This document shows positions 20,007 through 48,578 of a DNA stretch of 50,537 bases, piece after piece. This DNA comes from a virus. The position numbers and the translations under genes are program-made. The stretch covers positions 1 to 50,537 of IMG/VR virus record IMGVR_UViG_3300025028_000002; one strand, 5' to 3'. Within the stretch, counting starts at the first letter, position 1; each line of letters opens with the position of its first letter. Below the pieces are notes generated by a model that saw only the letters and a list, made by a program, of their open reading frames with translations, was not told the origin of the DNA and searched no databases.

Positions 20007-20077
20007 GGAACACTCAAAGCCCACAACCCGCCAGCAATGCCATAATCTAAGCCACACGTACAGTATTTATAAGGCTT
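20007..20077 (+). promoter_or_regulatory. Late promoter F with RBS hairpin
   Basis: GGAACACTC (20007-20015) is a one-base variant of the box shared by six late promoters. The -10-like CATAAT lies at 20041-20046, with the standard 24-bp gap. AAGCC (20049-20053) can pair with GGCTT (20073-20077), which contains the AAGG ribosome-binding bases of the next gene. Confidence 0.6.
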
Positions 20078-20081
20078 TATC

Positions 20082-23072
20082 ATGGCAACTTATCTTAACT
20101 ATGATGATCAAGGCTTCATCGTTGGTACCAAGCGGCTAGAAAGCGGCATTAAATCCATTGGTGAAGATACCCAAGAAATCATACAGATACTAAAATCACA
20201 AAATCAGATTAACCAAACGGTATTAAACCGCATAGCTAAATCCAATGAGCGTATAGCCAACAAAAAGTCTATGCGTATTAAGGGCGTGGTGCCTACTTAC
20301 GATCCCACAAGCCCAGGGCGTAACAATGCCAGCCAGCCAAGCATGCAAGGCCAGGCGCAGTCAAAGCAGCAACACAGGCAGCAATTAAGTAGCGCAAGCC
20401 AGCCAGCCCAAAAAGAGGCAAGGGCCGCTGGCAGGAAGAGTAGCGACACGCTTAGTAATGTCACCTCAAGCGCTAAAGTCAAATCAGGTTCAACACCGGC
20501 CAATAGAGCCAACAATCAAAACGATAGCGGCTCAAGCGGTGCCAATAGATCAAGTGCTGGTAGAGGTGGAGCCCAGAGCCCAGAAGCGGCAAATAACGCC
20601 GCCGGTAGCGTACCTAGTGCAACTGGTGCAACACGTAAGACAAACAACTCAACTGGCAAAAATGGGCGTGAGAAGAAGAAAAAAGAAAGCGATCGTGACG
20701 AGCTAGGCCGTTTTACAGCCAAAGAAAAAACGCTATTCGACTCACTATCTAAGATAGCCAAGAGTGGCCGTACAGGTTATGGCAGTTATGGCGGTGCTCA
20801 AAACATTGATCCGTTGATCGCCTCGGTGAACGAGGTAAAAGACATTGCATCGCCTATTTTTAATATGGCCATGAAAACTGGCAAGATGGGCGGCGCAGCT
20901 GGCAAGGCGGCATTAAGGGCCGGCAGGTTCTCATTATCTAAATACAAAAGCTTGAAGCGTAAAGAGCCATTACCAAAGGATCAGGCAAGACACAATAAGC
21001 AGAACGAGGAAACGCTGGGCGAGATCCTAAAGCGTATGCCAGGCAGTGATAATCCCTTATTTAGCAGGCTAGGTCGTGGCTTGGGTCTTTTAGGTAGAGG
21101 TAAAGGTAAAGGCAAAGGCAAAGGCAAAGGCAAGGATAAGGATAAGGACCGCAAAGGCAATAAAAATAAAGGCAAGGGTATTAAGTCTATCTTGGCTGGT
21201 GGAGCTGGCGCGGCTGTTTTAGGCGCCGGTAAGATTGGCGGTGAGGGTGTCAAGAAGGCAGCCAAAGTGGTTGGTAGTGCTAAAGTTTTAGGGCCGTTAG
21301 CGACGGCGGTTGGCATGGGCAACTTGATTGGCCAGTGGAAAGAGCTTGACCACAAAGAGAAATCAGAAGATATAGGTGGCCTGGCAGGCGGTAGTGTCGG
21401 TGCCGTTGCTGGTGGAGCACTTGGTACGGCATTGATACCAATTCCGGTGGTAGGTACCGCCATTGGGGCGGCCGTGGGTGGCTGGCTAGGTAACGAGGGC
21501 GGCGAGGTTTTAGGCCGTACAGCTTCGCCTCATATCATGTCATGGACCGATAGCGTTAAGGCTTACAACTTACCTCAAAAAATGCAAACTAAGTGGGAAA
21601 GTGGATTGGCGCCGGTCTTTTCTAAGCTAAGCGAGGCGGCCGGCGGCATGAAGTCGTGGCTATCCAGAATGGGTGATGGGGTTAGCAGCTTTTTTGGGGG
21701 CGGTGGTGATGGTTCGGGCGGCTGGAAAGTTGATTTTGGTTCAGGGTTAACATCAGCCAAAGACGGCGTTACCTATAAAATGGGTGCTAAAAACTTTAGC
21801 GGCGGTGTTATTGATTGTTCAGGCTGGGTTGATCAATTAAACAAAGATACCGTAAGACAGATTGAAGAGCAGCTAGGGCCAGAGGCGGCTAAACGTGCTC
21901 GTATTAATGCAGGCAATGGTGCAGCCGGTATTATTCAGTCAGAGGAAAAGAAAGGGCACATGGTAGCCACAGCGAACAGCTGGGCTCAACTAGATATCAA
22001 TAAGTTGCAGGCTGGCATGGTTATCGGTGAGTCACGTGGGGAGCATGCAAGAAAAGAAGGCAGATACAAAGACATCGGCCATATTGTGCAGATCATTGAA
22101 GAAAACGGCGTTAAATACGTGTCTGAATCTACATCAGCTAAAGGCAAGGACGGTAAAAGCGGTGTAAGAAAAACAGAGCTTAGCGAGTACATCAAAAACC
22201 TTAATGGCCGTCAATTTGGGGTGACAGTAGTTGACCCTTACAAAGAGCTTAGAGGCCAGTTAAGCGGCGGCGGCGGTACGGTTGATGTTAGCTCAAGCAG
22301 ACTAACTTCACAAAGTGAAAAGACTAGACGTGATCAGGCTATGCAATACTTCATGTCTCAAGGTTGGACTAAGCAGCAAGCCGCTGGTATTGTCGCTAAC
22401 ATCCAAAAAGAAAGTAGGTTCGACCCTAGAGCTCAAGGGGATAAAGATAAAAACGGTGTATATAGGGCACATGGCTTAGCTCAATGGCGAGATAGCAGAC
22501 TTGCAGACTTCCGTAGCACTATGGGTAAGTCAGTACAGCAAGCGTCGTTCGAAGAGCAGTTAGCTTTTATTCAGTATGAGCTAACGAAGGGTAAAGAGAA
22601 GGCGGCTGGTAATAAGCTAAAACAAGCCAAAACAGCAGGCCAGTCCGGGGCTATTGTGTCAGAGCACTACGAGCGACCAGGTGCAGTTGAGGCTGAAAAG
22701 AGAGAGCGTGCGAAAATTGCAGAGGGTATCTATAACAATACAGCGGTTCAGTCGGTTCAACAAAAAACCAAAACAACTAACAGTGTGTTAGGTGTTAATG
22801 TTGGTGGCTTGGCCAATAACTTTGTTGCAGGTAACACGCCAGCCTACCTACCAGCCAGCCAGTCAATAGGCCTCGATTTGGGCGCGTCAATACTGAAAAA
22901 TGTACTTAACATCCCTGAAATGCCTTCGTTTAAATTGCCGCTGGCAGGTGGTGGCCTAGACAAGCCTATCGTTGTTCAATCTAACAATGAGAGCATAGGC
23001 CAAAATGTATCAGACAGGGATTTGGCACATGCAATTACCGGTGGTATCGGTATGAGCAGAGCTTGGGGTTAG
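20082..23072 (+). CDS. Virion protein with NlpC/P60-like and phage tail lysozyme domains
   Basis: A protein of 996 residues. Residues 60-330 are Ser/Ala/Asn/Gly-rich and disordered, with a Gly-Lys repeat near 343-350. Several hydrophobic Gly/Ala-rich segments lie at about 368-465, which could enter or cross membranes. An NlpC/P60-like region has VIDCSGW (C about 578) and GHIVQI (H about 666). Residues about 745-885 match the phage tail lysozyme domain (SQGWTKQQAAGIVANIQKES with the catalytic glutamate, then GLAQWR and ERPG). It probably opens the cell wall and helps DNA passage at infection. The first late gene, with its own promoter. Confidence 0.75.
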   Translation: MATYLNYDDQGFIVGTKRLESGIKSIGEDTQEIIQILKSQNQINQTVLNRIAKSNERIANKKSMRIKGVVPTYDPTSPGRNNASQPSMQGQAQSKQQHRQQLSSASQPAQKEARAAGRKSSDTLSNVTSSAKVKSGSTPANRANNQNDSGSSGANRSSAGRGGAQSPEAANNAAGSVPSATGATRKTNNSTGKNGREKKKKESDRDELGRFTAKEKTLFDSLSKIAKSGRTGYGSYGGAQNIDPLIASVNEVKDIASPIFNMAMKTGKMGGAAGKAALRAGRFSLSKYKSLKRKEPLPKDQARHNKQNEETLGEILKRMPGSDNPLFSRLGRGLGLLGRGKGKGKGKGKGKDKDKDRKGNKNKGKGIKSILAGGAGAAVLGAGKIGGEGVKKAAKVVGSAKVLGPLATAVGMGNLIGQWKELDHKEKSEDIGGLAGGSVGAVAGGALGTALIPIPVVGTAIGAAVGGWLGNEGGEVLGRTASPHIMSWTDSVKAYNLPQKMQTKWESGLAPVFSKLSEAAGGMKSWLSRMGDGVSSFFGGGGDGSGGWKVDFGSGLTSAKDGVTYKMGAKNFSGGVIDCSGWVDQLNKDTVRQIEEQLGPEAAKRARINAGNGAAGIIQSEEKKGHMVATANSWAQLDINKLQAGMVIGESRGEHARKEGRYKDIGHIVQIIEENGVKYVSESTSAKGKDGKSGVRKTELSEYIKNLNGRQFGVTVVDPYKELRGQLSGGGGTVDVSSSRLTSQSEKTRRDQAMQYFMSQGWTKQQAAGIVANIQKESRFDPRAQGDKDKNGVYRAHGLAQWRDSRLADFRSTMGKSVQQASFEEQLAFIQYELTKGKEKAAGNKLKQAKTAGQSGAIVSEHYERPGAVEAEKRERAKIAEGIYNNTAVQSVQQKTKTTNSVLGVNVGGLANNFVAGNTPAYLPASQSIGLDLGASILKNVLNIPEMPSFKLPLAGGGLDKPIVVQSNNESIGQNVSDRDLAHAITGGIGMSRAWG

Positions 23073-23305
23073 TTTTACGCGTAACGCCTTAAAAGCGTTG
23101 AAGTTTTTAGGTTAACCAATATAATGACTCCATCATCAAGGTGATAACTCCCTACTTTGATTCTTGATGTGTTTGCAGTGTATTGAATGGGGGTAGTAGT
23201 GGCATGCCATTGACCATGAACCCCCCCCGTTTTTACGATGACGTGTTATTTCTGTTGATCCTTATATTTTTTTTGGCCGCCCCGTTCCCTGGCGGCCTTT
23301 TTTTT
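23073..23305 (+). terminator. Intergenic stretch with two terminators
   Basis: After the tail lysozyme gene a weak hairpin AACGC/GCGTT (23084-23100) is followed by a T-rich run. A strong terminator, GGCCGCC (23275-23281) with GGCGGCC (23291-23297) and eight T, ends the unit. Between them GGGGG (about 23188) could pair with the C8 tract at 23221-23228 around a TGGCATGCCA palindrome. No gene is seen. Confidence 0.75.
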
Positions 23306-23312
23306 GCTTAAA

Positions 23313-23396
23313 GGAACACCCCAAAGGCAAAACAGCTTAACCCCTTAAACTAAGGCATATATTAAATATTCTATGCCTTTGTTGAGGGGTTTTTTC
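23313..23396 (+). promoter_or_regulatory. Late promoter A with nested RBS hairpin
   Basis: Box GGAACACCCC (23313-23322), -10-like TAAACT (23346-23351, gap 23). AACCCC (23339-23344) pairs with GGGGTT (23386-23391), and inside it AAGGCATA (23352-23359) pairs with TATGCCTT (23372-23379). The ribosome-binding GAGGGG is in the 3' arm, followed by six T and ATG. The layout fixes the gene start at 23397, not at the ATG inside the hairpin (23373). Confidence 0.7.
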
Positions 23397-24329
23397 ATGG
23401 CTAAGAAAACTAAAGTTATTACTTACAACTTGGCGGATCGTGGCCGCAAATACAATGGCCAGGACCGTTCAGATTTAGATATTCGCTCAATGGTTAACAA
23501 GATTAATTCACCAGAGGTTCAAGAGCTTGTTAGCAGTGGTGATTTGTTTGGCTTTAATGGCCATGAGATACGAGCACGTTTTGGTATGTACCCACCAGAC
23601 CAATGGGTTGATGAAAAGACGGGCCGTATTATTAAAATCCAGCCAGCCTTACGCACAATTCGACTTGAAGCCGATGATGATGGAAACGTTGTTACCCAGC
23701 ATGAGTTTTTAGATACAGACGACGGCCAATTTGCAGCACGCTTATACGCGAATAAAGCTGGCGGCTTTAGCAGTGCCATTAACCGCAGACGCAAGCCAGA
23801 CGGGTTCTACGAGGTCACCGGCTTTCATGGCTTTGACTATGTGCGAACACCAAACTATGCCACAAATAAAGGCGATGGTATGTTCGACAGTATCTTGAAT
23901 GGCGCTTATACCGAAGGTGAGGCGTGCTTTGATAGCCTGGTAGAGCTACCACAAGATCAGATTGTCTTAAAAGAGGCCTTAGAACGTATCATCATTGCTC
24001 AATATGACTCAATGCAAACGGCCCTACATTCAGAGTCACTGGTAAGCCATTATCAGCGTGAAGCACTAGCAGCCCAGGATGCTTTAATTAATGCTGAAAT
24101 GCGCCGTCAAAAAGTATTAGAGCGTAAGAAGCAGCGAGAATTAGATATTTACGATAGCCTAATTTGCCCATCTAAGCCGTTTGATGAAATTAAGGCCCAA
24201 TGGGATAGCTTTCATATTGGAAGCACCTCAGACGCAGATTTACGCATAAGCGAGCTAGATAAAGCGGCTGGCAAGTCAGATAGACAAGAAGAGCGTGTCA
24301 GCATTGTTGATAGATTCCGTGGTCTTTAA
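23397..24329 (+). CDS. Putative prohead core protease
   Basis: A protein of 310 residues. Residues 80-130 read ALRTIRLEADDDGNVVTQHE, then FLDTDDGQFAARLYANKAGG and FSSAI. This parallels the T4 gp21-type prohead protease pattern of a beta strand, LDT..G, and a G-x-SS motif that contains the catalytic serine. The C-terminal third is helical and charged. A place near the large terminase and before the capsid gene suits head maturation. The match is by eye and the catalytic triad is not certain; a scaffold or other head protein remains possible. Confidence 0.4.
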   Translation: MAKKTKVITYNLADRGRKYNGQDRSDLDIRSMVNKINSPEVQELVSSGDLFGFNGHEIRARFGMYPPDQWVDEKTGRIIKIQPALRTIRLEADDDGNVVTQHEFLDTDDGQFAARLYANKAGGFSSAINRRRKPDGFYEVTGFHGFDYVRTPNYATNKGDGMFDSILNGAYTEGEACFDSLVELPQDQIVLKEALERIIIAQYDSMQTALHSESLVSHYQREALAAQDALINAEMRRQKVLERKKQRELDIYDSLICPSKPFDEIKAQWDSFHIGSTSDADLRISELDKAAGKSDRQEERVSIVDRFRGL

Positions 24330-24343
24330 TTAAGGATTGAGCA

Positions 24344-25890: not shown

Positions 25891-25901
25891 TGGGGTAGTT
25901 G

Positions 25902-27464
25902 ATGTTAGATGATTTAATGCTGTTACCTGAATGGCAGGAGGTATGCCAAAGGTATCGCTATGACATTACGCGCTTTGCCGTTGAAGCTTTAGATATGACA
26001 ATACAAGCCGGACAAGCAGTAACCTGGCAGCAAGAGCTATTGTTTAAATCTATTGTTGTACCAGGCAGCCGTACAAGCGTTGCATCTGGCCACGGTACTG
26101 GTAAGAGTAGATCGGCTGGCATTATCGCCTTATGGCACCTTTTATTTTACCCCGAGTCGGTAATGCTATTTACCGCGCCTCAAATCGGACAGCTTAGAAC
26201 CGTTGTTTGGAAAGAGATTAATATCTGTTTGCAGCGCCTACGCAATAACAAGGCGCTAGGCTGGCTTGCTGATTATGTTGTCGTATTAGCAGAAAAGATC
26301 TATATCAAGGGCTTTAAAGATACCTGGTTCGTTTTTGCTAAGACCGCACCGAAGCACCAACCAACTAACATTGCCGGTCAACACGGCGATCACTACATGG
26401 TATGGGCTGATGAAGCTTGTGGTATTGACGACGCAGTAATGGAAGTTGCCATTGGTGCATTGACCCATGAGAACAACAGGGCCGTATTAACCAGCCAGCC
26501 GGCTAAAAACACCGGTTTCTTCTACGACACACACCACAAGCTAAGCCACCATAATGGCGGTAAATGGATTGCCCTTGAGTTCAACGGTGAAATGTCACCG
26601 ATCGTTAGTAAAGAAAAACTGATTGAGGCCTTATATCAGTATGGCAGTCGAAACAGCCCAGGGTATCTAATTCGTATTCGCGGTAAGTTCCCAGAGCTTA
26701 AAGGTGAGTATCTATTAACACGTACTGACTACGAGAATATGAAGGCCCATCCTTGCGTGATTGAAGAGGGTGATAAGTGGGGTATTATCGTAACCGTGGA
26801 CGTGGGCGGCGACGTTGGCCGCGATAGTAGCGTGATATCGGTAATGCAAGTCGTTGATAAGATGATTAAGGGCCGTATTGAGAGACACGTACATTTGCTT
26901 GATATACCGCTGTTTAGTAATAGAGCCAATATCAATACGCTTAAAGCCAAAATCAATGATGTAATGAGCGATTACCCAGGCGCGACCTTGGTGATTGACC
27001 CGCTAGGCGCTGGTATGGGTTTAACGCAGTCGGTAAAAGCTGATGGGGTGTATTTTGATGAAGTGCATTGGGGTTCGCCTTGCTTTAACAACACGCTCAA
27101 ACGCTACTACATGAACAAGCGCAGCCACGCTTATGTAGCAATGGCCAAAGCAGTAGAAAAAGGCTATTTCAGTGTAAGCGATAAGGTTAAAAAAATGTAC
27201 CAGGTAATGACTAACCTGGAAGAACAGATGACACGCTTACCGTATTACTTTGATGAGAAGGCCCGTTGGTGCATGATGAGCAAAAAAGACATGCTCAAAA
27301 AGGGCATTAAGTCACCGGATATTGCAGATACCATAGCGTTTGGTTTTATGGAAAATATAAGCTATGCGCCGGTTGAAAGTTACGAGGATCTAAGCTTGGG
27401 TAGCACTGAAAGCGATGAATTAGACCTATTAAAACAAGCAGCCGATGAATTACTTGGTGAGTAG
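25902..27464 (+). CDS. terL: Terminase large subunit
   Basis: A protein of 520 residues from ATG 25902 (a TTG codon at 25899 is less likely). The ATPase part has Walker A SGHGTGKS (about 62-69) and Walker B MVWADEAC with the catalytic glutamate. An LTSQPAKN coupling motif follows. The nuclease part starts near 295 with VTVDVGGDVGRDSSVISV, the RNase H-like first aspartate, and later VIDPLGAGMG. It drives DNA into the prohead and cuts it. Full length for the family. Confidence 0.95.
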   Translation: MLDDLMLLPEWQEVCQRYRYDITRFAVEALDMTIQAGQAVTWQQELLFKSIVVPGSRTSVASGHGTGKSRSAGIIALWHLLFYPESVMLFTAPQIGQLRTVVWKEINICLQRLRNNKALGWLADYVVVLAEKIYIKGFKDTWFVFAKTAPKHQPTNIAGQHGDHYMVWADEACGIDDAVMEVAIGALTHENNRAVLTSQPAKNTGFFYDTHHKLSHHNGGKWIALEFNGEMSPIVSKEKLIEALYQYGSRNSPGYLIRIRGKFPELKGEYLLTRTDYENMKAHPCVIEEGDKWGIIVTVDVGGDVGRDSSVISVMQVVDKMIKGRIERHVHLLDIPLFSNRANINTLKAKINDVMSDYPGATLVIDPLGAGMGLTQSVKADGVYFDEVHWGSPCFNNTLKRYYMNKRSHAYVAMAKAVEKGYFSVSDKVKKMYQVMTNLEEQMTRLPYYFDEKARWCMMSKKDMLKKGIKSPDIADTIAFGFMENISYAPVESYEDLSLGSTESDELDLLKQAADELLGE

Positions 27465-27500
27465 GCTGGCAGGTGGAACATATAGCAGGCTTGCCAGCCT
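27463..27500 (+). promoter_or_regulatory. Intercistronic hairpin after terL
   Basis: AGGCTGGCA (27463-27471) pairs perfectly with TGCCAGCCT (27492-27500). There is no T-run, so it is more likely an RNA-processing or stability element than a terminator. Confidence 0.5.
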
Positions 27501-27548
27501 AAATGGTTAAACTTAGACGATACCGAAATTTTAAGGATTGCGTTAGTT

Positions 27549-28934
27549 ATGGCGAATAAACCGAACCCAATTATATTTAGAATTACCGAAGAAGGGCGTT
27601 TAGCAGTGCTAGACGCTCAAAAGCAAGGCATAAGCTTGTCTTTAAAAACGCTTGTCGCTGGCACGTCAAAATACGTGCCAAATGGCAGAGAAACACGCAT
27701 TAGAGCAGAGGCCATGCGATCCGATATCGTAACCAGCGGTATTGAGAAAGAAAGCAAGTCTTTACGCTTTAGTGTTAGCTTAAACAGTGTTACTTCAAAA
27801 GATATCTACGAGATTGGATTGCTAACCAGCGACAACAAGCTTTTTGCGATCGCAGCTAGTACCAGTCCGTTGTTTACCGTATATGCAAACGTGACATTTG
27901 TTGGTAGTTTTGGCTTATCGTTAGGCGAACTTGATGTTGAGAACATAACGATTGAAACCGATCCCAACAGCCCTATCGCTGTCAAGATGATGGAGGATCA
28001 TTTATCAGCGGCCGACCCTCATCCTCAATATATCAAGCTTGAGAAGCTTACGCAGCTTGATAAGAAGGTGGATAAGCTTGGCCAAAACATCAACGGTGCG
28101 GCTGGCGACTTATCAGGGCACTTGGCACACGCAAACCCACACCCTCAATACGCACTCAAAAAAGATAACGATCAGAAAACTAGCCAGCTTGAGGCGGCAA
28201 ACCAGGCACTACAAAAAGAGCTTGAAGCTCAAAAAGGCACGTTATCCCAGCAGGGTGGTAATTTAACGCAGCAAGGCAAAGATATTACCAAGGTTACAGA
28301 CGACCTTGCTAACCATATCAAGGCGGCCGACCCTCATACGCAATATGCCAAGAAAACAGACTTATCAGCCCATACAAGTGCGTCTGATCCGCATACGCAA
28401 TATGCTAAAAAGACCGACTTGTCAGCCCATACCAGCGCAACACACCCTCACACCCAGTATCTAAGAGAGTCTGACCTGGCTGGCATGAAACAACAAATTC
28501 AACAATTGCAGCAGCAGTTAGTAGCAGCCCAAAACAAGGTTACTGAATTACCGATTGGTTCAGTGCATGTGACAACAAACGACTATAAGAGCAGTGCAGA
28601 AGTTAAAGCAGCTTTAGGTTATGGCGCGTGGGCCAGGTTCGCAGAAGGTAAAACGCTCGTTGGTATGTCAACCAAAGCGGCCGACCCTGAATGGACTAAA
28701 AAACTAAAAACAGAGTTTGGTGAATATGACCACAAGCTTACCATTGCTGAAATACCTAGCCACACTCACGACTTAGACTTTGTAGTGAGTAATATTAGAG
28801 GTAACACAAGGCCTGCAACGCAAAGTACAAGTGCGTCGCCTTCAAACTTAGTAGCCTCAAATGCTGGGGGTGATAAACCCCATAACAACGTGCAGCCTTC
28901 AATCGTTGTGGCTTACTGGTTGAGAACAGCTTAG
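27549..28934 (+). CDS. Tail fibre/collar protein
   Basis: A protein of 461 residues. Residues 1-140 match the DUF3751-type phage tail-collar N-terminus (KPNPIIFRITEEGRLAVLDA, then IYEIGLLTSDNKLFAIAA). The middle contains five copies of a H-x4-P-H-x-Q-Y motif (ADPHPQY, ANPHPQY, ADPHTQY and so on), known in trimeric fibres to bind metal, with a Gln-rich coiled coil between. The C-terminus (about 345-461) has YGAWARFAEGKTLVGMS, EIPSHTHDLDF and the terminal PSIVVAYWLRTA of fibre tips. A receptor contact role is likely. Confidence 0.85.
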   Translation: MANKPNPIIFRITEEGRLAVLDAQKQGISLSLKTLVAGTSKYVPNGRETRIRAEAMRSDIVTSGIEKESKSLRFSVSLNSVTSKDIYEIGLLTSDNKLFAIAASTSPLFTVYANVTFVGSFGLSLGELDVENITIETDPNSPIAVKMMEDHLSAADPHPQYIKLEKLTQLDKKVDKLGQNINGAAGDLSGHLAHANPHPQYALKKDNDQKTSQLEAANQALQKELEAQKGTLSQQGGNLTQQGKDITKVTDDLANHIKAADPHTQYAKKTDLSAHTSASDPHTQYAKKTDLSAHTSATHPHTQYLRESDLAGMKQQIQQLQQQLVAAQNKVTELPIGSVHVTTNDYKSSAEVKAALGYGAWARFAEGKTLVGMSTKAADPEWTKKLKTEFGEYDHKLTIAEIPSHTHDLDFVVSNIRGNTRPATQSTSASPSNLVASNAGGDKPHNNVQPSIVVAYWLRTA

Positions 28935-28936
28935 TT

Positions 28937-30999: not shown

Positions 31000-31075
31000 G
31001 GTTTTAGACACAATCAACCTTGCACTGGTGTTTTTTTTAACCTTTCTGATGTAAACCTGCCAGCAATGCCAGTCA

Positions 31076-31097
31076 ACCGCCTTAAATGGCGGTTTTT
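31076..31097 (+). terminator. Terminator before the capsid operon
   Basis: AACCGCC pairs with GGCGGTT around a short loop, followed by six T. It ends the terminase-to-30999 unit just before late promoter B. Confidence 0.8.
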
Positions 31098-31104
31098 TGC
31101 TATT

Positions 31105-31185
31105 GGAACACCCCTAAAAAGGGTGTCTAGGCGAGTCTTAATATAACCCTATCGGATATGTTCAATTTTTTTCAATGACGATAGG
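31105..31185 (+). promoter_or_regulatory. Late promoter B of the capsid operon
   Basis: Box GGAACACCCC (31105-31114), 24-bp gap, -10-like TAATAT (31139-31144). CCTATCG (31148-31154) pairs with CGATAGG (31179-31185), and the latter supplies the ATAGGA ribosome-binding site of the capsid gene. Here the box is also half of an inverted repeat, ACACCC with GGGTGT. Confidence 0.7.
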
Positions 31186-31194
31186 AATATTCTT

Positions 31195-33003
31195 ATGAAT
31201 AAAGACCAAGCCAAACAACATTTATCCGTTGTTTCTAATGAGCTTACAAAAACACGCCAGTTTATGCGTGAATTTGCTAAGTTTGATGCCAAACAATCTG
31301 ACGTTGCACAATTTGACTCAATGATCGCTGCCAACTCGCATGATCGTGAAATGGGATTACAGGCCATTCCTGAGTCATTGCAAAAACTGTTAGAGGCTCA
31401 AAACATTTCAGCTGCCCCAGCTGGCAAGCAAGCGGTATTTGACGGCTTACGTGATGGTATTGCCGAATATCAACGTCGTAACGGCGGCGATATGCCACCA
31501 GTAGAAGTTGTGCAATCAGCTTTATCAGCTGCTACCGCATTTACTGAAAACGCACATCGCGGTGATGATAATGATCCAGCGTTCGACAGCCTATCATTTA
31601 GCCACCATGAGGCCTTATCAGTAGTACCAGCTGCCGTACAAGTTGTTATTACTATGGGTATCGCAAACAGCCTACCATTAATCTCAATGCTACCTAACCC
31701 AACTGGCTCAAACGAAGTACCAATCGTTGCCGGTGAAGGTACCGCTGGCATGGATATGGGCGTTATGCGCCGTGGTGAATTAATCGACGGTGAAAAAGCA
31801 GGCTTACCATACTTCGATAACCGTCACTTATTGGTTATGGAAGATGCAGGCGAAGGCAAATTTACCCTTGAGTCTCACGTTGCGTACACCAAAGAAATTC
31901 GTGACAACAAAACTACCAAGTTTGTTGTAGATAAAGACTCTATCAAAGCCCCATTCTTAGGCGGGCGTGTAAGCATTAAAGTTCGCGGCGTTGAAGTTGC
32001 TAACGATAACCATCGCAGCCACCCAACTTTTGGCGGTAAGAGCACGTTACAGCCGCTTGAGCCGGTTACTTTAGGCGCTGATACCTTTATCGTTAAGTCA
32101 GCAGTTGCAGACCTTGACAACCATACGGTTGAAGTTGCGTTCGATACTACCGACGGTGCCACTCCTAAAGCAGACGAAGTAGAAGTTGAGCTAATCTTTG
32201 ACTATGAGCGTAAAGACGAAAAAGGCGACTACATTTTACGTGCCCCAAGCCACGATATGCAGTTTAGCTACTATGGCGTTTACGCTTACCCAAGCCGTGC
32301 CCGTTCTACCGCTACTATCGACGCGATCACCCAGCTACAAAATGAGCTAGGTATTAACTGGTACGCAGCGGCTCAAATGTTATTTATCAACAAATACAAC
32401 TTTGAGCAAAACGGCCGCTTATTACGTGGTGCAGTTAACCAGTGTTTAGCCAACCAAGAGCAGCACGTCAAAGTATTCGACGCTGATATCGCTGGCTTGA
32501 CTCATATCCACTTAACGGATCTTTACTCAAATGTCCGTGTAGTATTAGGTAAAGCACGTACTTCACTATCAACCATCACTAACACAGCTATTGGTCAGTA
32601 TGACTTATACGTGTCAGACCGTGGTGCAGCGTTCTTTGAAGCTATGGGCCGTGATGACTACACCCCAACCGGCGAACAGTACGGCGATCAATACTCAATC
32701 TACCGTATTGGCCAGTTAAACACCGGTGCAAACGTTTATTACGTGCCAGCCTCTATGGGCGTGTTTAACGAAGATGAATTAACCCAAGGCGGCTATGCGT
32801 TAATGGTGCCACGTTCATCCACACCAGCTAAAGCACCATTCGTAGGTACTGTGGCAGTTCCAACTATGGTTCTAGCATCATCTGCTAATGCGTTTGAAAA
32901 AGACGTAGCGGTTTATAACCGTATGGCAGCTGAGCCAAACCCAATCCCACGTTATCGCAATCAGTGCATGTTAATTGAATTACGCAATTTACCATCACTT
33001 TAA
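31195..33003 (+). CDS. Major capsid protein
   Basis: A protein of 602 residues. The first 130 residues are helical and may be removed on maturation (NKDQAKQHLSVVSNELTKTR...). The centre and C-terminus are mixed alpha/beta with long extended strands, e.g. DNRHLLVMEDAGEGKFTLES and FSYYGVYAYPSRARSTATID. Codons in this gene are more uniform (CGT, GGC/GGT, AAC) than in its neighbours, as expected for the most expressed protein. It has its own late promoter and RBS. The identity is inferred from size, context and expression signs, not from a clear motif. Confidence 0.65.
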   Translation: MNKDQAKQHLSVVSNELTKTRQFMREFAKFDAKQSDVAQFDSMIAANSHDREMGLQAIPESLQKLLEAQNISAAPAGKQAVFDGLRDGIAEYQRRNGGDMPPVEVVQSALSAATAFTENAHRGDDNDPAFDSLSFSHHEALSVVPAAVQVVITMGIANSLPLISMLPNPTGSNEVPIVAGEGTAGMDMGVMRRGELIDGEKAGLPYFDNRHLLVMEDAGEGKFTLESHVAYTKEIRDNKTTKFVVDKDSIKAPFLGGRVSIKVRGVEVANDNHRSHPTFGGKSTLQPLEPVTLGADTFIVKSAVADLDNHTVEVAFDTTDGATPKADEVEVELIFDYERKDEKGDYILRAPSHDMQFSYYGVYAYPSRARSTATIDAITQLQNELGINWYAAAQMLFINKYNFEQNGRLLRGAVNQCLANQEQHVKVFDADIAGLTHIHLTDLYSNVRVVLGKARTSLSTITNTAIGQYDLYVSDRGAAFFEAMGRDDYTPTGEQYGDQYSIYRIGQLNTGANVYYVPASMGVFNEDELTQGGYALMVPRSSTPAKAPFVGTVAVPTMVLASSANAFEKDVAVYNRMAAEPNPIPRYRNQCMLIELRNLPSL

Positions 33004-36988: not shown

Positions 36989-36990
36989 TT

Positions 36991-40779: not shown

Positions 40780-40788
40780 GAGGTTAAT

Positions 40789-41649
40789 ATGAAAAAATTA
40801 GTATCACATGATGAAATGGTTAAATTTGTAGAGGGCTTTGCGGGTATTTTTGGCCAGGGCATGAAAGAAATGCTTGGTCAACTTGAGCAAATCAGAGCCA
40901 AATTAAGAGACTTGGAAGATAAGGTCGAAATCCTTATGAACATGCCAGACGTTGAGGTTCAGCCACCCGCTATGAACGACGTAGGCCTAGATAAAGACTA
41001 TCCAGGCCATGGTTGGTATAAAGCCACTGATACCGGTATTATCTACAACAAGGGCGTACCAGAGGGTGAGACTCATGTATTCTCGGACGGCGATCCAATA
41101 GCGTATTTGAGCGTTTACACTAAAGAGGACGCAGTAGATAATCTTTATATTGCGGCCACGTCAAACGTAACTGATTTAAGCTCCGCTTTTTTCGATGAAG
41201 AAGAGTACAAATCGACTTATATTGGCCAAAACCTATCTCACTGGGACGTGTCAAACGTAACTAACTTTGAGAAAACGTTTTTCTATGCTCAAGTCGAAGA
41301 TATTGTAGGTATTGGAAACTGGAAAACAAGTTCAGCAATTAACATGGATAGCATGTTTGCTATTGCTGCTAAATTCAATACAGATATTAGCGGCTGGGAC
41401 GTATCAAACGTAACCAACATGAAAAGTATGTTTACTCAGGCAAGATCCTTTAACCAAGATATCAGCGGTTGGGATGTGTCAAATGTTGAGAACATGAATA
41501 ACACGTTCAACTTTACCGATAAGTTCAATCAAGATCTATCTGAATGGTGTGTGGCTAAAATCCCAACTCGACCCGAAGGTTGGGAAGGCTATGAGAATAT
41601 CGTACCTCCAGTTTGGGGAACCTGCCCGCGCGGTGAGGATCAAGCATAG
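40789..41649 (+). CDS. Receptor-binding protein with BspA-type (DUF285) repeats
   Basis: A protein of 286 residues. An N-terminal coiled coil (about 20-60, GMKEMLGQLEQIRAKLRDLE) would trimerise or attach it. Residues 125-265 have repeats of about 25 residues with the DUF285/BspA leucine-rich pattern, such as SGWDVSNVTNMKSMFTQARS and FNQDISGWDVSNVENMNNTF. These repeats are used by bacteria for adhesion and by some phages at fibre tips. Its place after the long fibre suggests a tip or receptor-binding module. Confidence 0.8.
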   Translation: MKKLVSHDEMVKFVEGFAGIFGQGMKEMLGQLEQIRAKLRDLEDKVEILMNMPDVEVQPPAMNDVGLDKDYPGHGWYKATDTGIIYNKGVPEGETHVFSDGDPIAYLSVYTKEDAVDNLYIAATSNVTDLSSAFFDEEEYKSTYIGQNLSHWDVSNVTNFEKTFFYAQVEDIVGIGNWKTSSAINMDSMFAIAAKFNTDISGWDVSNVTNMKSMFTQARSFNQDISGWDVSNVENMNNTFNFTDKFNQDLSEWCVAKIPTRPEGWEGYENIVPPVWGTCPRGEDQA

Positions 41650-41713
41650 GAACACCCCTAAACAATACTGTTAGCCCAACTCTATACTATGCCTATATTC
41701 ACCAATATAGGCA
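41649..41713 (+). promoter_or_regulatory. Late promoter C of the sheath operon
   Basis: Box GGAACACCCC (41649-41658), 24-bp gap, -10-like TATACT (41683-41688). TGCCTATATT (41690-41699) pairs perfectly with AATATAGGCA (41704-41713), followed by six T and the ATG of the sheath gene. The 10-bp hairpin with T-run also reads as a terminator for transcription arriving from the fibre operon. Confidence 0.75.
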
Positions 41714-41719
41714 TTTTTT

Positions 41720-43093
41720 ATGGCAACTCAACTGTTTATTAATATCCTGCCTACTTCCGTTACTATCACCAATAGCAAGGAAAGTAAGGCATTAGCAACT
41801 ATCGAGCTTGTTACTGAATACGGCTTTGACCACAACGTCGTGGCCAAGATTCAAGTAGTTGATGATAAGACACCAGCTAAAGCAAATGACCCGTTAAATA
41901 ACCTGTTATTTGACATTACATTTGCTGATAAAGTTGATGATAGTATGATCACCTCACTGCAAGGCCGTTTATACACTGGCGGCGGTGCAGACGAGCTTGA
42001 AAACAACTATCCAAACGACTTCTCATACATCACGCAAAAGCTTGATTTTCATGGCGCACTAGATAGCAGCAATGATTTCTTTGAGCAAGTCGAAACCACT
42101 TACTCTAAAGCCAATGCAACTCAGGTTGTAGATGCGTTAAAAGCTGTTAAGGCCCTAAAAGACCACGGTACCTACCGCAAGGCTGAAATTGTCATTGACG
42201 TGCCAGCCAGCAAGGTTGTAGAGCCAACACCCGAGCAGATCACACGCACTTTAATTGATATGCGTGAACGCCCACGTTACATTGTTGTTTGTTCAACCGA
42301 TGACATGCCTGTCATTGAGGCCACAACAAAGGTAATGGATAAGCTTAACTGTCACGTATTGCTAGACCTAGGTAAGATCAACGACTGGGTAGCAGCAGCG
42401 GCCCTTGCTGAATCTATTAACATCAAAGACCACCGTTTTTGGGTTTTTTGGAACCCGAACGTATCACGCCCTTCAAACAGCGCAAGCGTACTATCACGTA
42501 AAAAATGGCGCCCTTGTGTCGGTGACTACCTAGGCCAATTACTTGTGCGTAACGCTATCACCAACGCTTCTGGCATCCCACCTGTTAACCGCCCTGTTGC
42601 TGGTTATGACTTCCCTGTTAGCTTCCGTGATATGGAAACTATGCCAAGTGTTAGCCTTGATGAAGAGGCCCAAAACGCCCTGGCGTCAGCTGGCGTGAAC
42701 GTGGTATTGAATGAACGCTTTGATGCAGGCGATCGCTGGATTTATGGTGACGCTATTACTCAATACGATAGTAAAACAAGCGCTTTACGCTTAATCAACG
42801 CATCTGAAATCACCACTTACGTTGATAACGCAGTAGTTAGCATTGCTAAAAAGCACTTACTTAAAGGTATGACTAGCTACATCAATGACGCAGACGCAGA
42901 GATCCGTCGCTTCTTGAACGCTTGTAGTTCAGCTGGCTTGTTACAGCCGGTGGCAGAGCTATCAGGCAAGCTATACGGCCTAGAGGTAGCACCAAGAGCA
43001 GATAACCCATTTGAAAAGGTTGATATTAGACTTGTCAAACGCCCAGAGGGTTGTGCTCGACAAGTTTACTTTGAAACCACAATCACCAAGTAA
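41720..43093 (+). CDS. Contractile tail sheath protein
   Basis: A protein of 457 residues. The C-terminal half has the sheath pattern: WVFWNPNVSRPSN, VGDYLGQLLVRNAITNASGI, an NVVLNERFDAGDRWIYGDAI strand region, then ALRLINASEITTYVDNAVVS and YINDADAEIRRFLNACSSAG. The N-terminal half has the insertion domains. This makes the phage a myovirus. It starts a separate late unit. Confidence 0.85.
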   Translation: MATQLFINILPTSVTITNSKESKALATIELVTEYGFDHNVVAKIQVVDDKTPAKANDPLNNLLFDITFADKVDDSMITSLQGRLYTGGGADELENNYPNDFSYITQKLDFHGALDSSNDFFEQVETTYSKANATQVVDALKAVKALKDHGTYRKAEIVIDVPASKVVEPTPEQITRTLIDMRERPRYIVVCSTDDMPVIEATTKVMDKLNCHVLLDLGKINDWVAAAALAESINIKDHRFWVFWNPNVSRPSNSASVLSRKKWRPCVGDYLGQLLVRNAITNASGIPPVNRPVAGYDFPVSFRDMETMPSVSLDEEAQNALASAGVNVVLNERFDAGDRWIYGDAITQYDSKTSALRLINASEITTYVDNAVVSIAKKHLLKGMTSYINDADAEIRRFLNACSSAGLLQPVAELSGKLYGLEVAPRADNPFEKVDIRLVKRPEGCARQVYFETTITK

Positions 43094-43125
43094 TACAGTT
43101 TATTATCAGTAAAGGAAAATAAATA

Positions 43126-44022: not shown

Positions 44023-44028
44023 TTTGTT

Positions 44029-44100
44029 GGAACACCCCAACTAATCAAAGCTAACAGCGAGCGATAATAACCCCAATCATTCAATTTGTTTGGGGTTATT
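44029..44100 (+). promoter_or_regulatory. Late promoter D
   Basis: Box GGAACACCCC (44029-44038), 24-bp gap, -10-like GATAAT (44063-44068). AATAACCCCAA (44066-44076) pairs perfectly with TTGGGGTTATT (44090-44100), followed by T5 and ATG 44106. The 5' arm begins inside the -10, so a transcript from this promoter would contain little or none of it. Confidence 0.75.
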
Positions 44101-44105
44101 TTTTT

Positions 44106-44645
44106 ATGAAACTGTCAGAAATCACAGAAAAAACATCGCTTGTCAGTGACTTTGTTAAGCGCTTAGCTAAAACTGCTAGGCAGCAAGTTGTTGTTGTTGA
44201 TGTTTTAAGAGTATCGAGGGTATCTGGTGCCAGTGCCAGGCCTGTTCATATCGCTTTAGACGGCGGCCAGGTTGTAAAGCTTTATATTCGTGAAGCCCCT
44301 GAATCAGATCAGCCGGATGGGCTGGATATTTTCCGTATTGATATTAACAGCAAAACACAGCCGACTACCGGTGACTTTGATAACTCTTACAAGCCGTCAT
44401 TCAACGCATCAGTTGACGAGATCGCAAAACTTGTTAGCCAGGGCCAAAAGGCATTTAGTGCCCGACGAGCTCGCGCCCAGGTAACAAGAACTAAGCGCAA
44501 TAGAGCACCAGCCAACAAAGCGCAAACGTTAAAATCACTGCTAGAAGAGTCGGTAGAACTAGATAAAGTAATTACCGTTAAGACCAAAGAAAAACAAGAT
44601 CTTGAGGCTCAATTAGAGAAAGTAAAACAGCAAAACGCAGCATAA
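44106..44645 (+). CDS. Hypothetical tail protein, 179 aa
   Basis: An alpha/beta N-terminal part (residues 1-80) leads to a helical, basic segment (RRARAQVTRTKRNRAPANKA) and a C-terminal coiled coil (ESVELDKVITVKTKEKQDLE). No family is recognised. It is the first gene of unit D, which carries baseplate genes; it could be a tail assembly or tape-measure chaperone-like protein. Confidence 0.45.
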   Translation: MKLSEITEKTSLVSDFVKRLAKTARQQVVVVDVLRVSRVSGASARPVHIALDGGQVVKLYIREAPESDQPDGLDIFRIDINSKTQPTTGDFDNSYKPSFNASVDEIAKLVSQGQKAFSARRARAQVTRTKRNRAPANKAQTLKSLLEESVELDKVITVKTKEKQDLEAQLEKVKQQNAA

Positions 44646-44654
44646 GGTGATGAC

Positions 44655-45095
44655 ATGCAAAACGCCTATATAGTGGACTTTTTTTTAAGCGGTATGTTAA
44701 TGATTATGATGTTTTACTTGTATGTAGATATACTTAGCAGGTTAAAGCTACTCAACAAAGTTATTGACAGCAATACATTGGCCGTGGCTATCGGTCAAAC
44801 CTTGCGTCAATCTGTATTGTTGAGCGTGCCGCTTTTAATATTGCTTATGTTCTTATTATGGCGTTTTTATGCCGTGATGGTTATAACGCAGTCATGGGGG
44901 ATTGGTGGTGCTGGCTTGCTTGTTATTATGGCCATTCTAGGATCGTTTTTTGTATGGCTTGATATGCTGTTAGTTTGCATCAGGAACTCAAGATTTGTTG
45001 ATGCGTCTAAGCTTATAACCCAGGCCAAAAAGACAAGATCTAAGATAAGACTACCAGACCCCAACACCCCATTATCCGAGGTGCGTATTAGATGA
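44655..45095 (+). CDS. Phage membrane protein, holin-like in outline
   Basis: A protein of 146 residues with three hydrophobic segments (about 8-25, 53-72 and 80-105), and a short basic C-terminus (AKKTRSKIRLPDPNTPLSEV). No family match. A small protein with three membrane segments in a late operon could be a holin, but no endolysin is adjacent. It overlaps the next start by 4 bases. Confidence 0.5.
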   Translation: MQNAYIVDFFLSGMLMIMMFYLYVDILSRLKLLNKVIDSNTLAVAIGQTLRQSVLLSVPLLILLMFLLWRFYAVMVITQSWGIGGAGLLVIMAILGSFFVWLDMLLVCIRNSRFVDASKLITQAKKTRSKIRLPDPNTPLSEVRIR

Positions 45096-45421
45096 TTACC
45101 GCCGAACACATTAGGCAGATGGTTATTCATTGGTTGGACACGCCGCCTAACGGCTATTTTGCTCAAGGCTATGGCGCAGATGCCAAGGCCATGCTGCTAA
45201 AAGAGTTGTCCGCTGATATAGCAGACGAGTTTTTGAGCAAGCTTAGGGCCGATATACCGATAATAAACACACTAGATGAAGATCAATTAAGTATATCCAT
45301 TGAAACAGTGGGATTTGATACGATTAACGTCGTCTTATCTATTGGCAGTATTGATATTCAGCTAAATGAAAACCCAATAACCGATATTGATCAGGATTAC
45401 TATAATGTCAGTGCCCAGTAA
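45092..45421 (+). CDS. Baseplate-associated protein, 109 aa
   Basis: MITAEHIRQMVIHWLDTPPN, then YGADAKAMLLKELSADIADE, and a beta-rich end. The opening (short helix, W-L..PP-G-Y, G-YG) resembles small baseplate wedge proteins found directly before the J-like protein in phages of this type. It overlaps the next gene by 17 bases. Confidence 0.5.
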   Translation: MITAEHIRQMVIHWLDTPPNGYFAQGYGADAKAMLLKELSADIADEFLSKLRADIPIINTLDEDQLSISIETVGFDTINVVLSIGSIDIQLNENPITDIDQDYYNVSAQ

Positions 45422-46877
45422 CCAGCTAAGAAAAAAGATACTATCAAGTATAGACAGTCATTTAAACGACTATCCAGAAGTTGCAGAACGCTGGCGAGCT
45501 GGCGACCCCACAGTAAGAGCCATGATGACTTCGGTAGTGGAAACTGTCTTATGGCTATCGCGTGATAACCAGGTAAATATTACAGAGCCGTTTATCAAGT
45601 CTAAGCAAAGCACGATCATTGCAGATGCTATCAACAAGGGTATATTGCCAGTTGCCACGCCTTGCCAGTACATGCTAACTATTGAGAACAATGGGAATAG
45701 CAAGGTTAGTTTGAGCCAGGGCCGTTTAGTTGAGGACGGTACGGGCAGACAATGGCGTCTTATGTCATCAGCAACGCTAAACGGCCATGAAACCAAAAAG
45801 GTTCTAGCAGAGCAAAGCACTGTTAATCATATTGAGGTTAACATACCTGTTAGTGAGTCTTTTTATCGCCTAGACGTATCAACAACCGACGGCGCCTATC
45901 TATCGAGTTTGTCAGTTTATAACGCAACTTTGGGTATGAATTTTCAGTACACGCCCAAGTTTATGAACGCCGGTTTGGGCCAGGCGGCTTATACACTACA
46001 AAGCCATAACCTTGAAGATATAACAATTGTTTTTGGCGACTCCGAACGTGCCGGCGTGACAGTACAAGCCGGTGATACCTACGAGATCGCAATCACTCAA
46101 AGCTATGGGTATGTTGACCAATCAAGCCTAAGCAGCGCGGCCTTGAGTGAGATTTACGAGTCAGAGGAAAGCAAGTTAAACCTATATTTCAAAGCCGGTG
46201 ATCTTGTTCGAGCCGGCGCAGATCCGTTAAGCGTGGCTCAAATGCGACTACTTGCCAGCTACCCTTCAATGTATGACCATAACGCCGTTTTCATGGGTAA
46301 CTTTGACTTTTTAGTACGCAAGCACTTTATGCAGCGTTTTGACTACATGGCCATTTGGAATGAGACGATCAATGAGAAGCACTACGGGGCCTCATTGGAC
46401 GCAATCAACCATCTATTTTTAACTGTGGTAGCTAAAAACAAGATTGAGCAAAAGGCGCTGGTAGAGGATATTAAAAAGCTGGTAGCTAATGCTGACTCGC
46501 TATTGGATGGAAAGGTTAATGTTAAAGAGGTTAAGGAAAGACCTTATAAGATTACCATTGCTGGCCGCTTAGCATCGGTGCATGATATGGATTCAGTAAA
46601 GACTCAAATCAAAGAGTTGCTGCTAGAAAACTTTGGTAAAGGCTCGCTATCATCAAGCTACCACAGCCCAGACGGTTTTAATAAGCAAGAAATTGCCATT
46701 AAGATTAGAAGTGATATTACAGCCTTCCAGGACCGTATTAGTGACTTTTCAGTCTTAACAGAAGATACCGCTAAAAACCCCATTAAACCGCATGAATGGG
46801 CTTATATCACAGAGGATAGTATTACTATCGACATGACAAGAACGGCCGACACTGGCACAGCTATTTGGACTTTGTAA
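45405..46877 (+). CDS. Baseplate wedge protein (J-like)
   Basis: A protein of 490 residues from ATG 45405, with AGGA 9 bases upstream. Residues 25-140 resemble the N-terminal baseplate J domain (ERWRAGDPTVRAMMTSVVET then LPVATPCQYMLTIENNGNSK), and the C-terminal 130 residues have the alpha/beta repeat with ERPYKITIAGRLASVHDMDS. Size and neighbours (small wedge protein before it, tail-tip protein after it) support a baseplate role. Confidence 0.65.
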   Translation: MSVPSNQLRKKILSSIDSHLNDYPEVAERWRAGDPTVRAMMTSVVETVLWLSRDNQVNITEPFIKSKQSTIIADAINKGILPVATPCQYMLTIENNGNSKVSLSQGRLVEDGTGRQWRLMSSATLNGHETKKVLAEQSTVNHIEVNIPVSESFYRLDVSTTDGAYLSSLSVYNATLGMNFQYTPKFMNAGLGQAAYTLQSHNLEDITIVFGDSERAGVTVQAGDTYEIAITQSYGYVDQSSLSSAALSEIYESEESKLNLYFKAGDLVRAGADPLSVAQMRLLASYPSMYDHNAVFMGNFDFLVRKHFMQRFDYMAIWNETINEKHYGASLDAINHLFLTVVAKNKIEQKALVEDIKKLVANADSLLDGKVNVKEVKERPYKITIAGRLASVHDMDSVKTQIKELLLENFGKGSLSSSYHSPDGFNKQEIAIKIRSDITAFQDRISDFSVLTEDTAKNPIKPHEWAYITEDSITIDMTRTADTGTAIWTL

Positions 46878-46878
46878 A

Positions 46879-47514
46879 ATGGGTAGAACAAGCAAATTAC
46901 AGGCTGCCGACTTTACTAGAACGGTACAAGAGAGCCATAAGGCAAACGAGCTTGATGAAGCCATTGCAGGTGTTTTTACTAAGCTGATTGAGGAATACGA
47001 GCTTGAAGGCTTGGTTGATATGAATAGCTATGGTGCGCCATGGCTTGAAAGCAGCCCAGTTGTTATTGAGCGATTTAGTAAGCTTAACGGACTGGTGATC
47101 TTGAGACAAGATACAGAAGGGCTATCAACTGATATTATGGCTATGATCTTATCTGCCTGGCAGGGTATGGCCAGCGGCCGTGGCCTAGACTTTTTGCAGT
47201 TCGTACTAAACATGCTGTTTCCTGGAAATAACAGGGTATTGAGGCTTTGGCACTCAAAAGAGCTGGCAAATGCTTACCCAGTAGCAGTAAGCGAAAAGCA
47301 AATGCCAGGCTCGTTTTTAACTAGCCGTGTGCGTATTGCATTAACGCTTAATGATAACAATAGTGATATTTCAGATATTGCCCCCGTCTTAGAAAAGCTG
47401 GTTCCCTGGAATATCGTACCTGAAATTGCTGTCTCTGTTGATTTCAGCCAAGTGGATGTAGCTGTTGCTGCTGGCGGCTATCGCTATCATGTGGCTTATC
47501 TATCTCCATATTAA
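46879..47514 (+). CDS. Baseplate or tail-tip protein, 211 aa
   Basis: The ATG follows the previous stop by one base. The protein contains SAWQGMASGRGLDFLQFVLN and NRVLRLWHSKELANAYPVAV, with SFLTSRVRIALTLND, a pattern like the I-type proteins that follow J in baseplate operons. It is the last gene before the reversed transporter gene. Confidence 0.5.
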   Translation: MGRTSKLQAADFTRTVQESHKANELDEAIAGVFTKLIEEYELEGLVDMNSYGAPWLESSPVVIERFSKLNGLVILRQDTEGLSTDIMAMILSAWQGMASGRGLDFLQFVLNMLFPGNNRVLRLWHSKELANAYPVAVSEKQMPGSFLTSRVRIALTLNDNNSDISDIAPVLEKLVPWNIVPEIAVSVDFSQVDVAVAAGGYRYHVAYLSPY

Positions 47515-47525
47515 TGCGTTTTCAA

Positions 47526-48350
47526 TTACTGATGGTTAGCATGTGAGTGATCATGGTTATGATGCTCTTCAGTATTAGAACCGTGCATATCTTGAGAGTG
47601 GTCGTGCGTAGTAGAAATCATCGCTGAATCATCATGCATTTGATGTGCGCCATGCGAGCCGTGATCGCCGTGTCCACCCATGCTATGCATGGCTATAGGC
47701 AGGGCAATTACTGCCAGTCCTGACAAAATCATTACGACGCCATTTAATTGACGTAATTTATAGCGGCCAATTTGTTTGTGTAGCCAGCCCACAGTCTCTT
47801 GGGTAGCGACCAACATGGGAACCGTGCCTAAGCCAAAGACAAACATTAATAAAGCCCCAGTTGCGATGTTATTGCCGACAACGGCCATCAGTAGAGCGCC
47901 ATAGACCAAGCCACAAGGTAAAAAGCCCCATAATAAACCCGCTGCTAAAGCCCTTGGGAAGGTAGTTATTGGGAAAACTTTTTGACGTAAAGGGGAGAGT
48001 TTTTTCCAAACGCCCATGCCCACTTTTTCAAGCTTATTTAAAAAAGGCATGCCCAGCATAGATAGGCCAATGAATACCAATACCAGACCCAGTAAAATAC
48101 GCGGGGTTGAGTTACCCATTAATAGTGGGGCTAAGACCGTGGTGCCCACAATACCTGCAATAACCCCTAGAATTGAGTAACTAACCAGGCGACCAAAGTG
48201 ATAAGTAGCAATAAGCCCTCTTTTCTTTAGTGGGCTTACTTCGTGCATAGATAGGCCAAAAGCGGTAACCAAGCCACCACACATACCCAAACAATGTGGT
48301 GAACCAAAAAAGCCCATAGCAAATGCTGCTAATAATAAAGGAGTTGTCAA
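47526..48350 (-). CDS. TauE/SafE-like (UreH/DsbD-type) metal transporter with a histidine-rich tail
   Basis: A protein of 274 residues from TTG 48350, with AAGGA six bases upstream. The N-terminal motif FFGSPHCLGMCGGLVTAFGL (HCxGMC), six or so membrane segments to about 222, and a second LPCGLVYGAL motif match the bacterial DsbD_2/TauE-like membrane proteins often found with cbb3 oxidase or copper genes. The last 50 residues are His-rich (GGHGDHGSHGAHQMHDD, HHNHDHSHANH) and probably bind metal. It is reversed between the tail-tip and tail-tube genes. This is a bacterial-type gene, so most likely cargo, with a role in copper, nickel or zinc handling. Confidence 0.75.
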   Translation of the reverse strand: MTTPLLLAAFAMGFFGSPHCLGMCGGLVTAFGLSMHEVSPLKKRGLIATYHFGRLVSYSILGVIAGIVGTTVLAPLLMGNSTPRILLGLVLVFIGLSMLGMPFLNKLEKVGMGVWKKLSPLRQKVFPITTFPRALAAGLLWGFLPCGLVYGALLMAVVGNNIATGALLMFVFGLGTVPMLVATQETVGWLHKQIGRYKLRQLNGVVMILSGLAVIALPIAMHSMGGHGDHGSHGAHQMHDDSAMISTTHDHSQDMHGSNTEEHHNHDHSHANHQ

Positions 48351-48507
48351 TTTTAATCCTTGTAGTCAATTTGACCCATAATATTTGATTTTTTAATCAC
48401 TCACAGTATTAGTATCGATATCGTATTCTAAAGTGAGGAGGAAGAAATCAAGGATTATATCATTAAATTGTTTTGATTCTTGAACCAGAGGCACTAAAAA
48501 ATTTTCA

Positions 48508-48578
48508 GGAACACCCCTAAAAGCTCAATACCTTTATACCCCAAAATATCCCTATCACTTATTATTGATTAGGGTTAT
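48508..48578 (+). promoter_or_regulatory. Late promoter E of the tail tube gene
   Basis: Box GGAACACCCC (48508-48517), 24-bp gap, -10-like CAAAAT (48542-48547). CCCTA (48550-48554) pairs with TAGGG (48570-48574), extending with one mismatch to AAT/ATT outside. AGGG in the 3' arm is the ribosome-binding site of the tail tube gene at ATG 48583. It also re-starts late transcription after the reversed transporter gene. Confidence 0.65.

Follow-up and report, generated by a model that had tools for sequence, protein, structure and literature searches.

Introduction

In bacteriophage T4, genes e, soc, 49 and I-TevI have their ribosome-binding site (RBS) hidden in structured RNA when they are carried on long early transcripts; transcripts of gene e from the late promoters immediately upstream lack the 5' strand of this structure and are translated well, and the structure cuts lysozyme synthesis 100-fold (PMC3014915). 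Phage P1 has 11 late promoters, which Lpa switches on through an inverted repeat of 9 bp (PMC10695390). The P1 record puts this inverted repeat at -22. In phage lambda, cI acts at PRM as a helix-turn-helix (HTH) activator that is bound near -42 and contacts region 4 of sigma.

Here we describe what we take to be a late promoter class of P1-like Moraxellaceae phages, in which an activator box is combined with a promoter that lies inside an RBS-gating hairpin. We assign this reading, taken as a whole, a probability of about 0.82. A search of the openly available literature returned no description of the box, and neither the record of Acinetobacter phage vB_AbaM_ABMM1 (ABMM1 hereafter) nor the ABMM1 paper describes late promoters.

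The phage and its relatives

The window, that is the whole stretch of DNA analysed, spans an entire IMG/VR virus record of 50,537 bases and is possibly an incomplete contig. Its large terminase (25899..27464, plus strand) is of the PacB type, with 31% identity to P1 PacB over 95% of the query and 54% identity to ABMM1 (both by tblastn), and the phage is therefore P1-like. Several viral contigs encode a terminase 98% identical to that of the window. The closest named genomes belong to Psychrobacter and Moraxella, and the host is probably Psychrobacter. Because megablast of the window against phage records returned no match, relatives were collected through protein comparison. Outside the late region, a CI-type S24 repressor gene (7700-8368, minus strand) diverges from an Ant/KilAC-type antirepressor gene (8788-9477, plus strand), a pair that is likely the lysis-lysogeny switch.

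Seven sites share a box and a register

The sequence-only reading had proposed six late promoters built around one ten-base box. Indeed, GGAACACCCC occurs on the plus strand at 23313, 31105, 41649, 44029 and 48508 (5 seen against 0.09 expected) and its variant GGAACACTC at 20007. A search of both strands for GGAACAC returns exactly six matches, all on the plus, late strand. The -10 hexamers named for these sites are present, 24 bp past the ten-base box in five cases and 23 bp past it at 23313, so that the hexamer begins 33-34 nt from the box start at all six. The statement that there is no other copy is correct for the exact word and fails for the site, since a degenerate seventh box, GGAACAT, lies at 27475. 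When GGAA(C/T) is sought in an open scan together with a start codon and a -10 at 33-34 nt, seven sites and no more come out, each of them on the plus strand of the late region:

20007..20082 (+), late promoter 1: box GGAACACTC at 20007; -10 CATAAT at 20041-20046; predicted +1 at 20053; hairpin arms 20049-20053 / 20073-20077, 5 pairs; ATG at 20082 of a tape-measure-like gene
23313..23397 (+), late promoter 2: box GGAACACCCC; -10 TAAACT at 23346-23351, within the 5' arm; predicted +1 at 23358; two-part hairpin, arms 23339-23361 / 23370-23391, 20 pairs; T run; ATG at 23397
27475..27549 (+), late promoter 3: degenerate box GGAACAT; -10 TAAACT at 27508-27513; ATG at 27549
31105..31195 (+), late promoter 4: box GGAACACCCC; -10 TAATAT at 31139-31144; predicted +1 at 31151; hairpin arms 31148-31154 / 31179-31185, 7 pairs, 24-nt loop; ATG at 31195
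41649..41720 (+), late promoter 5: box GGAACACCCC; -10 TATACT at 41683-41688; predicted +1 at 41695; hairpin arms 41689-41699 / 41704-41714, 11 pairs; T run; ATG at 41720
44029..44106 (+), late promoter 6: box GGAACACCCC; -10 GATAAT at 44063-44068; predicted +1 at 44075; hairpin arms 44066-44079 / 44087-44100, 13 pairs; T run; ATG at 44106
48508..48583 (+), late promoter 7: box GGAACACCCC; -10 CAAAAT at 48542-48547; predicted +1 at 48554; hairpin arms 48544-48557 / 48566-48580, 13 pairs; ATG at 48583

The start codon of the 23313 unit is the one at 23397, not the longer-ORF start at 23373, and that of the 48508 unit is at 48583, not the TTG at 48565. The genes behind the boxes include the tape-measure-like gene and tail genes. 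In all six leaders noted at the outset, a hairpin is predicted whose 3' arm carries or overlaps the RBS. Its length, given as 5-11 bp, is right at the lower end and too short at the upper, with 13 pairs at 44029 and 48508 and 20 at 23313. At 27475, the hairpin has decayed in the window and is intact in the relatives G004, G008 and G002.

The box and its register recur in relatives

Scattered copies had been named as the outcome that would speak against the idea. In related phages the box instead reappears in front of late genes, with its distance to a -10 unchanged. The pattern of box, spacing and -10 is found in relatives on almost one strand alone (per-strand counts of 0/10, 0/13, 0/17 and 11/1) and is beyond chance, with 0-5 matches in the viral contigs to the reversed pattern that served as control; these counts refer to phage contigs, the whole-genome counts for host chromosomes (G017-G020) being swamped by chance matches and left out.

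We also scanned blindly, ranking all 5-mers at distances of 8-59 nt upstream of candidate -10s. GGAAC at 33 or 34 nt ranks first in the window, G014, G020, G009, G018 and ABMM1, and GGAAT at 34 nt ranks first in the Acinetobacter-like contigs G015 and G016, so that the top word, GGAAC or GGAAT, is common to the Psychrobacter, Moraxella and Acinetobacter relatives. ABMM1 has 15 matches at a distance of 34 nt and at most 4 at any other distance. On these two grounds we take GGAA(C/T) as the core and CACCCC as a lineage-specific extension; the ten-base box therefore does not stand as the conserved unit, its invariant part being GGAA(C/T) and the CAC(CCC) a Psychrobacter elaboration. The predicted +1 base is an A in 76% of the sites with spacing 34. 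Within the Psychrobacter set, the spacer holds no conserved second half-site or -35, and no element comparable to that of P1 is found near -22, the conserved element being GGAA(C/T) near -46. P1 itself has no GGAA box in the blind scan. A sigma-70 scan of the late region of the window gives fewer matches than shuffled sequences do.

Many ECF sigma factors recognize a -35 with GGAAC at its core, and the box could on that account be read as the -35-like element of an alternative, ECF-like sigma factor instead of an activator site. In ECF-sigma promoters, about 16-17 bp separate the GGAAC element from the -10. The 33-34 nt from box start to -10 start seen here exceed by about 11 nt what a single sigma factor can span, the -10 is of the sigma-70 type, and the conserved regulator described below has an XRE-type HTH, all of which makes such an alternative sigma factor at this box very improbable.

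Farther afield, Rb1 and G023 have GGAAA at 35 nt (4 seen against 0.04-0.09 expected), with weak hairpins in Rb1; these two are suggestive only as further cases of the system. G022 and G024, which have homologues of the HTH protein and a weak box or no visible one, were likewise considered and set aside. In G022, a P1-like phage of Paraburkholderia, GTGACAACAT stands directly before the -10 four times upstream of start codons (contig coordinates 28194, 28586, 46874 and 57867; GTGACA expected 0.02), which is a different promoter class. In two other relatives, successive genes each have a box, a -10 and a near-perfect hairpin (contig coordinates 60335, 61584 and 62479 in G007; 36283, 33743, 32421 and 31260 in G011), as if promoter, hairpin and gene had been duplicated together as cassettes.

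Read-through RNA is predicted to hide the RBS

The leader set comprised 145 distinct leaders, with 103 representatives at a 75% identity cut. For each we predicted the opening cost, that is the free energy needed to open positions -16 to -3 before the ATG, in read-through RNA and in RNA beginning six bases after the -10. The predicted median cost for box leaders is 9.05 kcal/mol in read-through RNA and 3.40 kcal/mol from the predicted +1; for 229 boxless genes of the same phages it is 4.39 kcal/mol in read-through and 3.71 kcal/mol in shortened RNA. The two costs lie more than 3 kcal/mol apart in 66% of box leaders versus 9% of controls (p 4e-23, an optimistic value, as are all p values given here, because related contigs are non-independent samples). 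Strong structure (8 or more kcal/mol) is predicted in 60/103 box leaders compared with 16% of 434 controls. When started at +1, 75% of the strong box leaders drop below 5 kcal/mol, against 15% of strong controls cut at a comparable length (29 nt). The hairpin had seemed to be the rule for the whole late regulon; this is borne out for most late promoters and not for all, as 43 of the 103 representatives lack a strong one.

We then shortened 54 strong leaders from the 5' end, one base at a time. Half-release precedes the predicted +1 in 54/54, and it is at the predicted +1 that the mean release curve bottoms out; in G015, 10/10 sites are released at +1. In line with the original proposal, the 5' arm thus lies upstream of or across the start, for starts as predicted, and release of the RBS is complete at that point. 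The release point keeps a constant distance to the -10 regardless of leader length, while its distance to the ATG rises with leader length (rho 0.68, p 1e-8). Because the release point tracks the -10 and not the ATG, this argues, as far as prediction goes, that the 5' arm is positioned relative to the promoter. Part of the overlap between hairpin and -10 arises because short leaders force any hairpin near the -10. At 31105 and 41649, moreover, several pairs persist in RNA starting at the predicted +1, which we count against the explanation.

Pairing is kept while arm sequences diverge

The arms differ in sequence between genes (CCCCTTAAACT, TGCCTATACTGAG, AACCCTATC and others) and their pairing is kept. 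In a covariation set of 18 AACCCTA-type leaders from phages of Psychrobacter, Moraxella and Acinetobacter, pairing holds in 90.7% of cells, 4/6 pairs show changes on both sides, and the covariation score is reached by 0/500 shuffles. At the orthologous gene of a Moraxella boevrei phage (G009), a GGAACAT box is accompanied by a hairpin of 12 bp.

Near-perfect inverted repeats span the -10 at several sites, a geometry that would also suit a DNA operator, with a repressor or other protein binding across -10/+1 and RNA folding incidental. A shared operator would conserve sequence rather than pairing, whereas here the arms vary by gene with compensatory changes that keep them paired, and they are tied to the RBS and to the -10 even with loops of 24-35 nt. 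We regard an operator as highly unlikely, and favor pairing in the RNA.

Some hairpins may also terminate

Three of the hairpins had been suggested to terminate the preceding unit as well. Such a role is predicted for about a third of the leaders and for read-through RNA only: 34/91 are terminator-like as read-through RNA and 1/91 from the predicted +1; the rest are not. One could go further and see the hairpins as mainly intrinsic terminators of the preceding late operon, with the promoter placed inside the previous unit's terminator and the RBS falling into the 3' arm just because leaders are short. The 34 terminator-like leaders are in keeping with this, as are the T-rich spacers between RBS and ATG (3.6 versus 1.8 T in 8) and the boxes at 41649 and 44029, which begin at or just past the previous stop codon. 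However, 57/91 leaders are not terminator-like, many of them with RBS-hiding structure (31105, 20007 and the G015 sites), and 37/91 have a separate terminator of their own just upstream of the box, although the two tend only weakly to exclude each other (odds ratio 0.46, p 0.12). Termination as the main role is thus doubtful. Rather, because a third of the leaders are terminator-like as read-through RNA, one is so from +1, and 37/91 have a separate terminator, termination and RBS hiding can, on these predictions, coexist in one hairpin.

A candidate activator

Among contigs of the Psychrobacter and Moraxella set that cover the region, the non-virion, non-packaging genes kept throughout are two neighbors:

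12565..13260 (+), candidate late activator: 231 aa, HTH_3 / XRE type, phrog_7396; homologues accompany the box; role proposed here
13260..14138 (+), partner gene: 292 aa, phrog_7533; kept in the Psychrobacter and Moraxella set

Relatives of the HTH protein are encoded by ABMM1, G015 and G016, and more distant ones by G022, G023, G024 and Rb1; for the partner, ABMM1 is the exception. The HTH protein matches PF01381 at 25.1 bits (cut-off 23). The N-terminal helices of its AlphaFold model, which is usable for the N-terminal HTH only (pLDDT 69, pTM 0.38), resemble XRE domains (best PDB E 6e-3), and a PDB search with the model also returns the lambda cI-sigma4 complex (1rio, E 0.08). The N-terminal domain is accordingly predicted to have an XRE/lambda-cI-type fold.

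The HTH protein is most likely the late activator: wherever coverage of a box phage suffices, ABMM1, G015 and G016 among them, its gene is present, and no other regulator-like gene is shared by all of these phages. The promoter class could also be as described and yet be served by the product of 13260-14138, a host factor or a gene off the contig: most relatives have the 292-aa partner alongside the HTH gene, the contig is possibly incomplete, and some phages with an HTH homologue show a weak box or no visible one (G022, G024). Given the conservation of the HTH gene with the box, we judge another activator rather unlikely.

In G012, G018 and G020, the operon of the HTH gene abuts the first boxed late gene; its read-through would therefore run straight into the late genes. 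Blocking this read-through would plausibly give the hairpins a T4-like purpose. In the window, the stretch from the HTH operon to late promoter 1 holds a surface-lipoprotein cargo cassette carried by the phage (14555-18312, minus strand). It consists of a Slam-type surface lipoprotein assembly protein adjoining a protein of 755 aa, which matches the TbpB barrel and whose C-terminal domain resembles factor-H-binding protein.

Proposed mechanism and comparison with known systems

We propose that a phage activator, most likely the HTH protein, binds GGAA(C/T) at about -46 to -37 and would bring the host's RNA polymerase to a -10 lacking a -35. This -10, or else the bases that directly follow it, would form the 5' arm of a hairpin with the RBS in its 3' arm. 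Transcripts initiated at the promoter would begin within or past the 5' arm and leave the RBS free; read-through RNA would have both arms, fold and hide the RBS, presumably lowering translation, and at about a third of the sites would probably end at the U run too. Late proteins would then come mainly from properly started late transcripts. The start sites in this scheme are inferred from the -10; what can be read from the sequences is the box and its register, their conservation, the predicted hairpins, and where these lie with respect to the -10. Most of the promoters come after other late operons, which makes the gain from blocking read-through late in infection less obvious.

A fuller version, to which we lean with distinctly less confidence than to the promoter class itself, is a lineage-wide late system in which a phrog_7396 XRE-type activator acts at GGAA near -46 to -37, most late promoters lie in the 5' arm of an RBS-hiding, partly terminating hairpin, and the choice of promoter would gate translation and termination regulon-wide. 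The hairpins would turn a T4 trick known from few genes into the rule for a whole late regulon, upheld by compensated pairs as the arms drift apart in sequence. For P1-like prophages of Psychrobacter, Moraxella and Acinetobacter, both a promoter box and a candidate for its activator can now be named; prophages of the ABMM1 type are present in dozens of IMG/VR records. The start sites are predicted to the base, and the arrangement would be a compact natural design that insulates genes from read-through.

The comparison with T4 that had been drawn from the start is apt (PMC3014915). As in T4, the read-through RNA is predicted to hide the RBS and the predicted promoter transcript lacks the 5' strand. 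T4 uses this at a handful of genes with gp55-dependent late promoters; here, by contrast, the box is of the activator type, most late promoters of a P1-like lineage are involved, and the -10 is often within the arm.

With P1, the phage shares the PacB-type terminase and scattered late promoters with a -10, those of P1 being activator-dependent. The boxes differ: P1 has AACAAGTGACTT-like boxes near -22 and Lpa (PF25716), the window's lineage GGAA(C/T) near -46, and no Lpa homologue (PF25716 / phrog_1704) was matched among the window proteins scanned, which were part of the ORFs of a possibly incomplete contig. Four of the 11 annotated late promoters of P1 (LPsit, LPdar, LP23 and LPpac) are predicted to free the RBS by more than 3 kcal/mol when RNA starts at the promoter, a count taken on the P1 promoters by themselves. 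At these four, the RBS region pairs with an arm that lies at the -10 or close to it, as in TAGAATC / GATTCTA at LPsit. Because P1 keeps the hairpin at some Lpa promoters, the hairpin design may predate the box.

The position of the site and the HTH fold of the candidate are like those of lambda cI at PRM, a resemblance only; unlike for cI, no second half-site is visible in the box, and activation is proposed for the candidate. As judged from sequence, the system is real and conserved, a known trick in a version that extends over a regulon and comes with a new box and a candidate for its activator: T4-like by mechanism, P1-like by phage kinship, and neither by its box.
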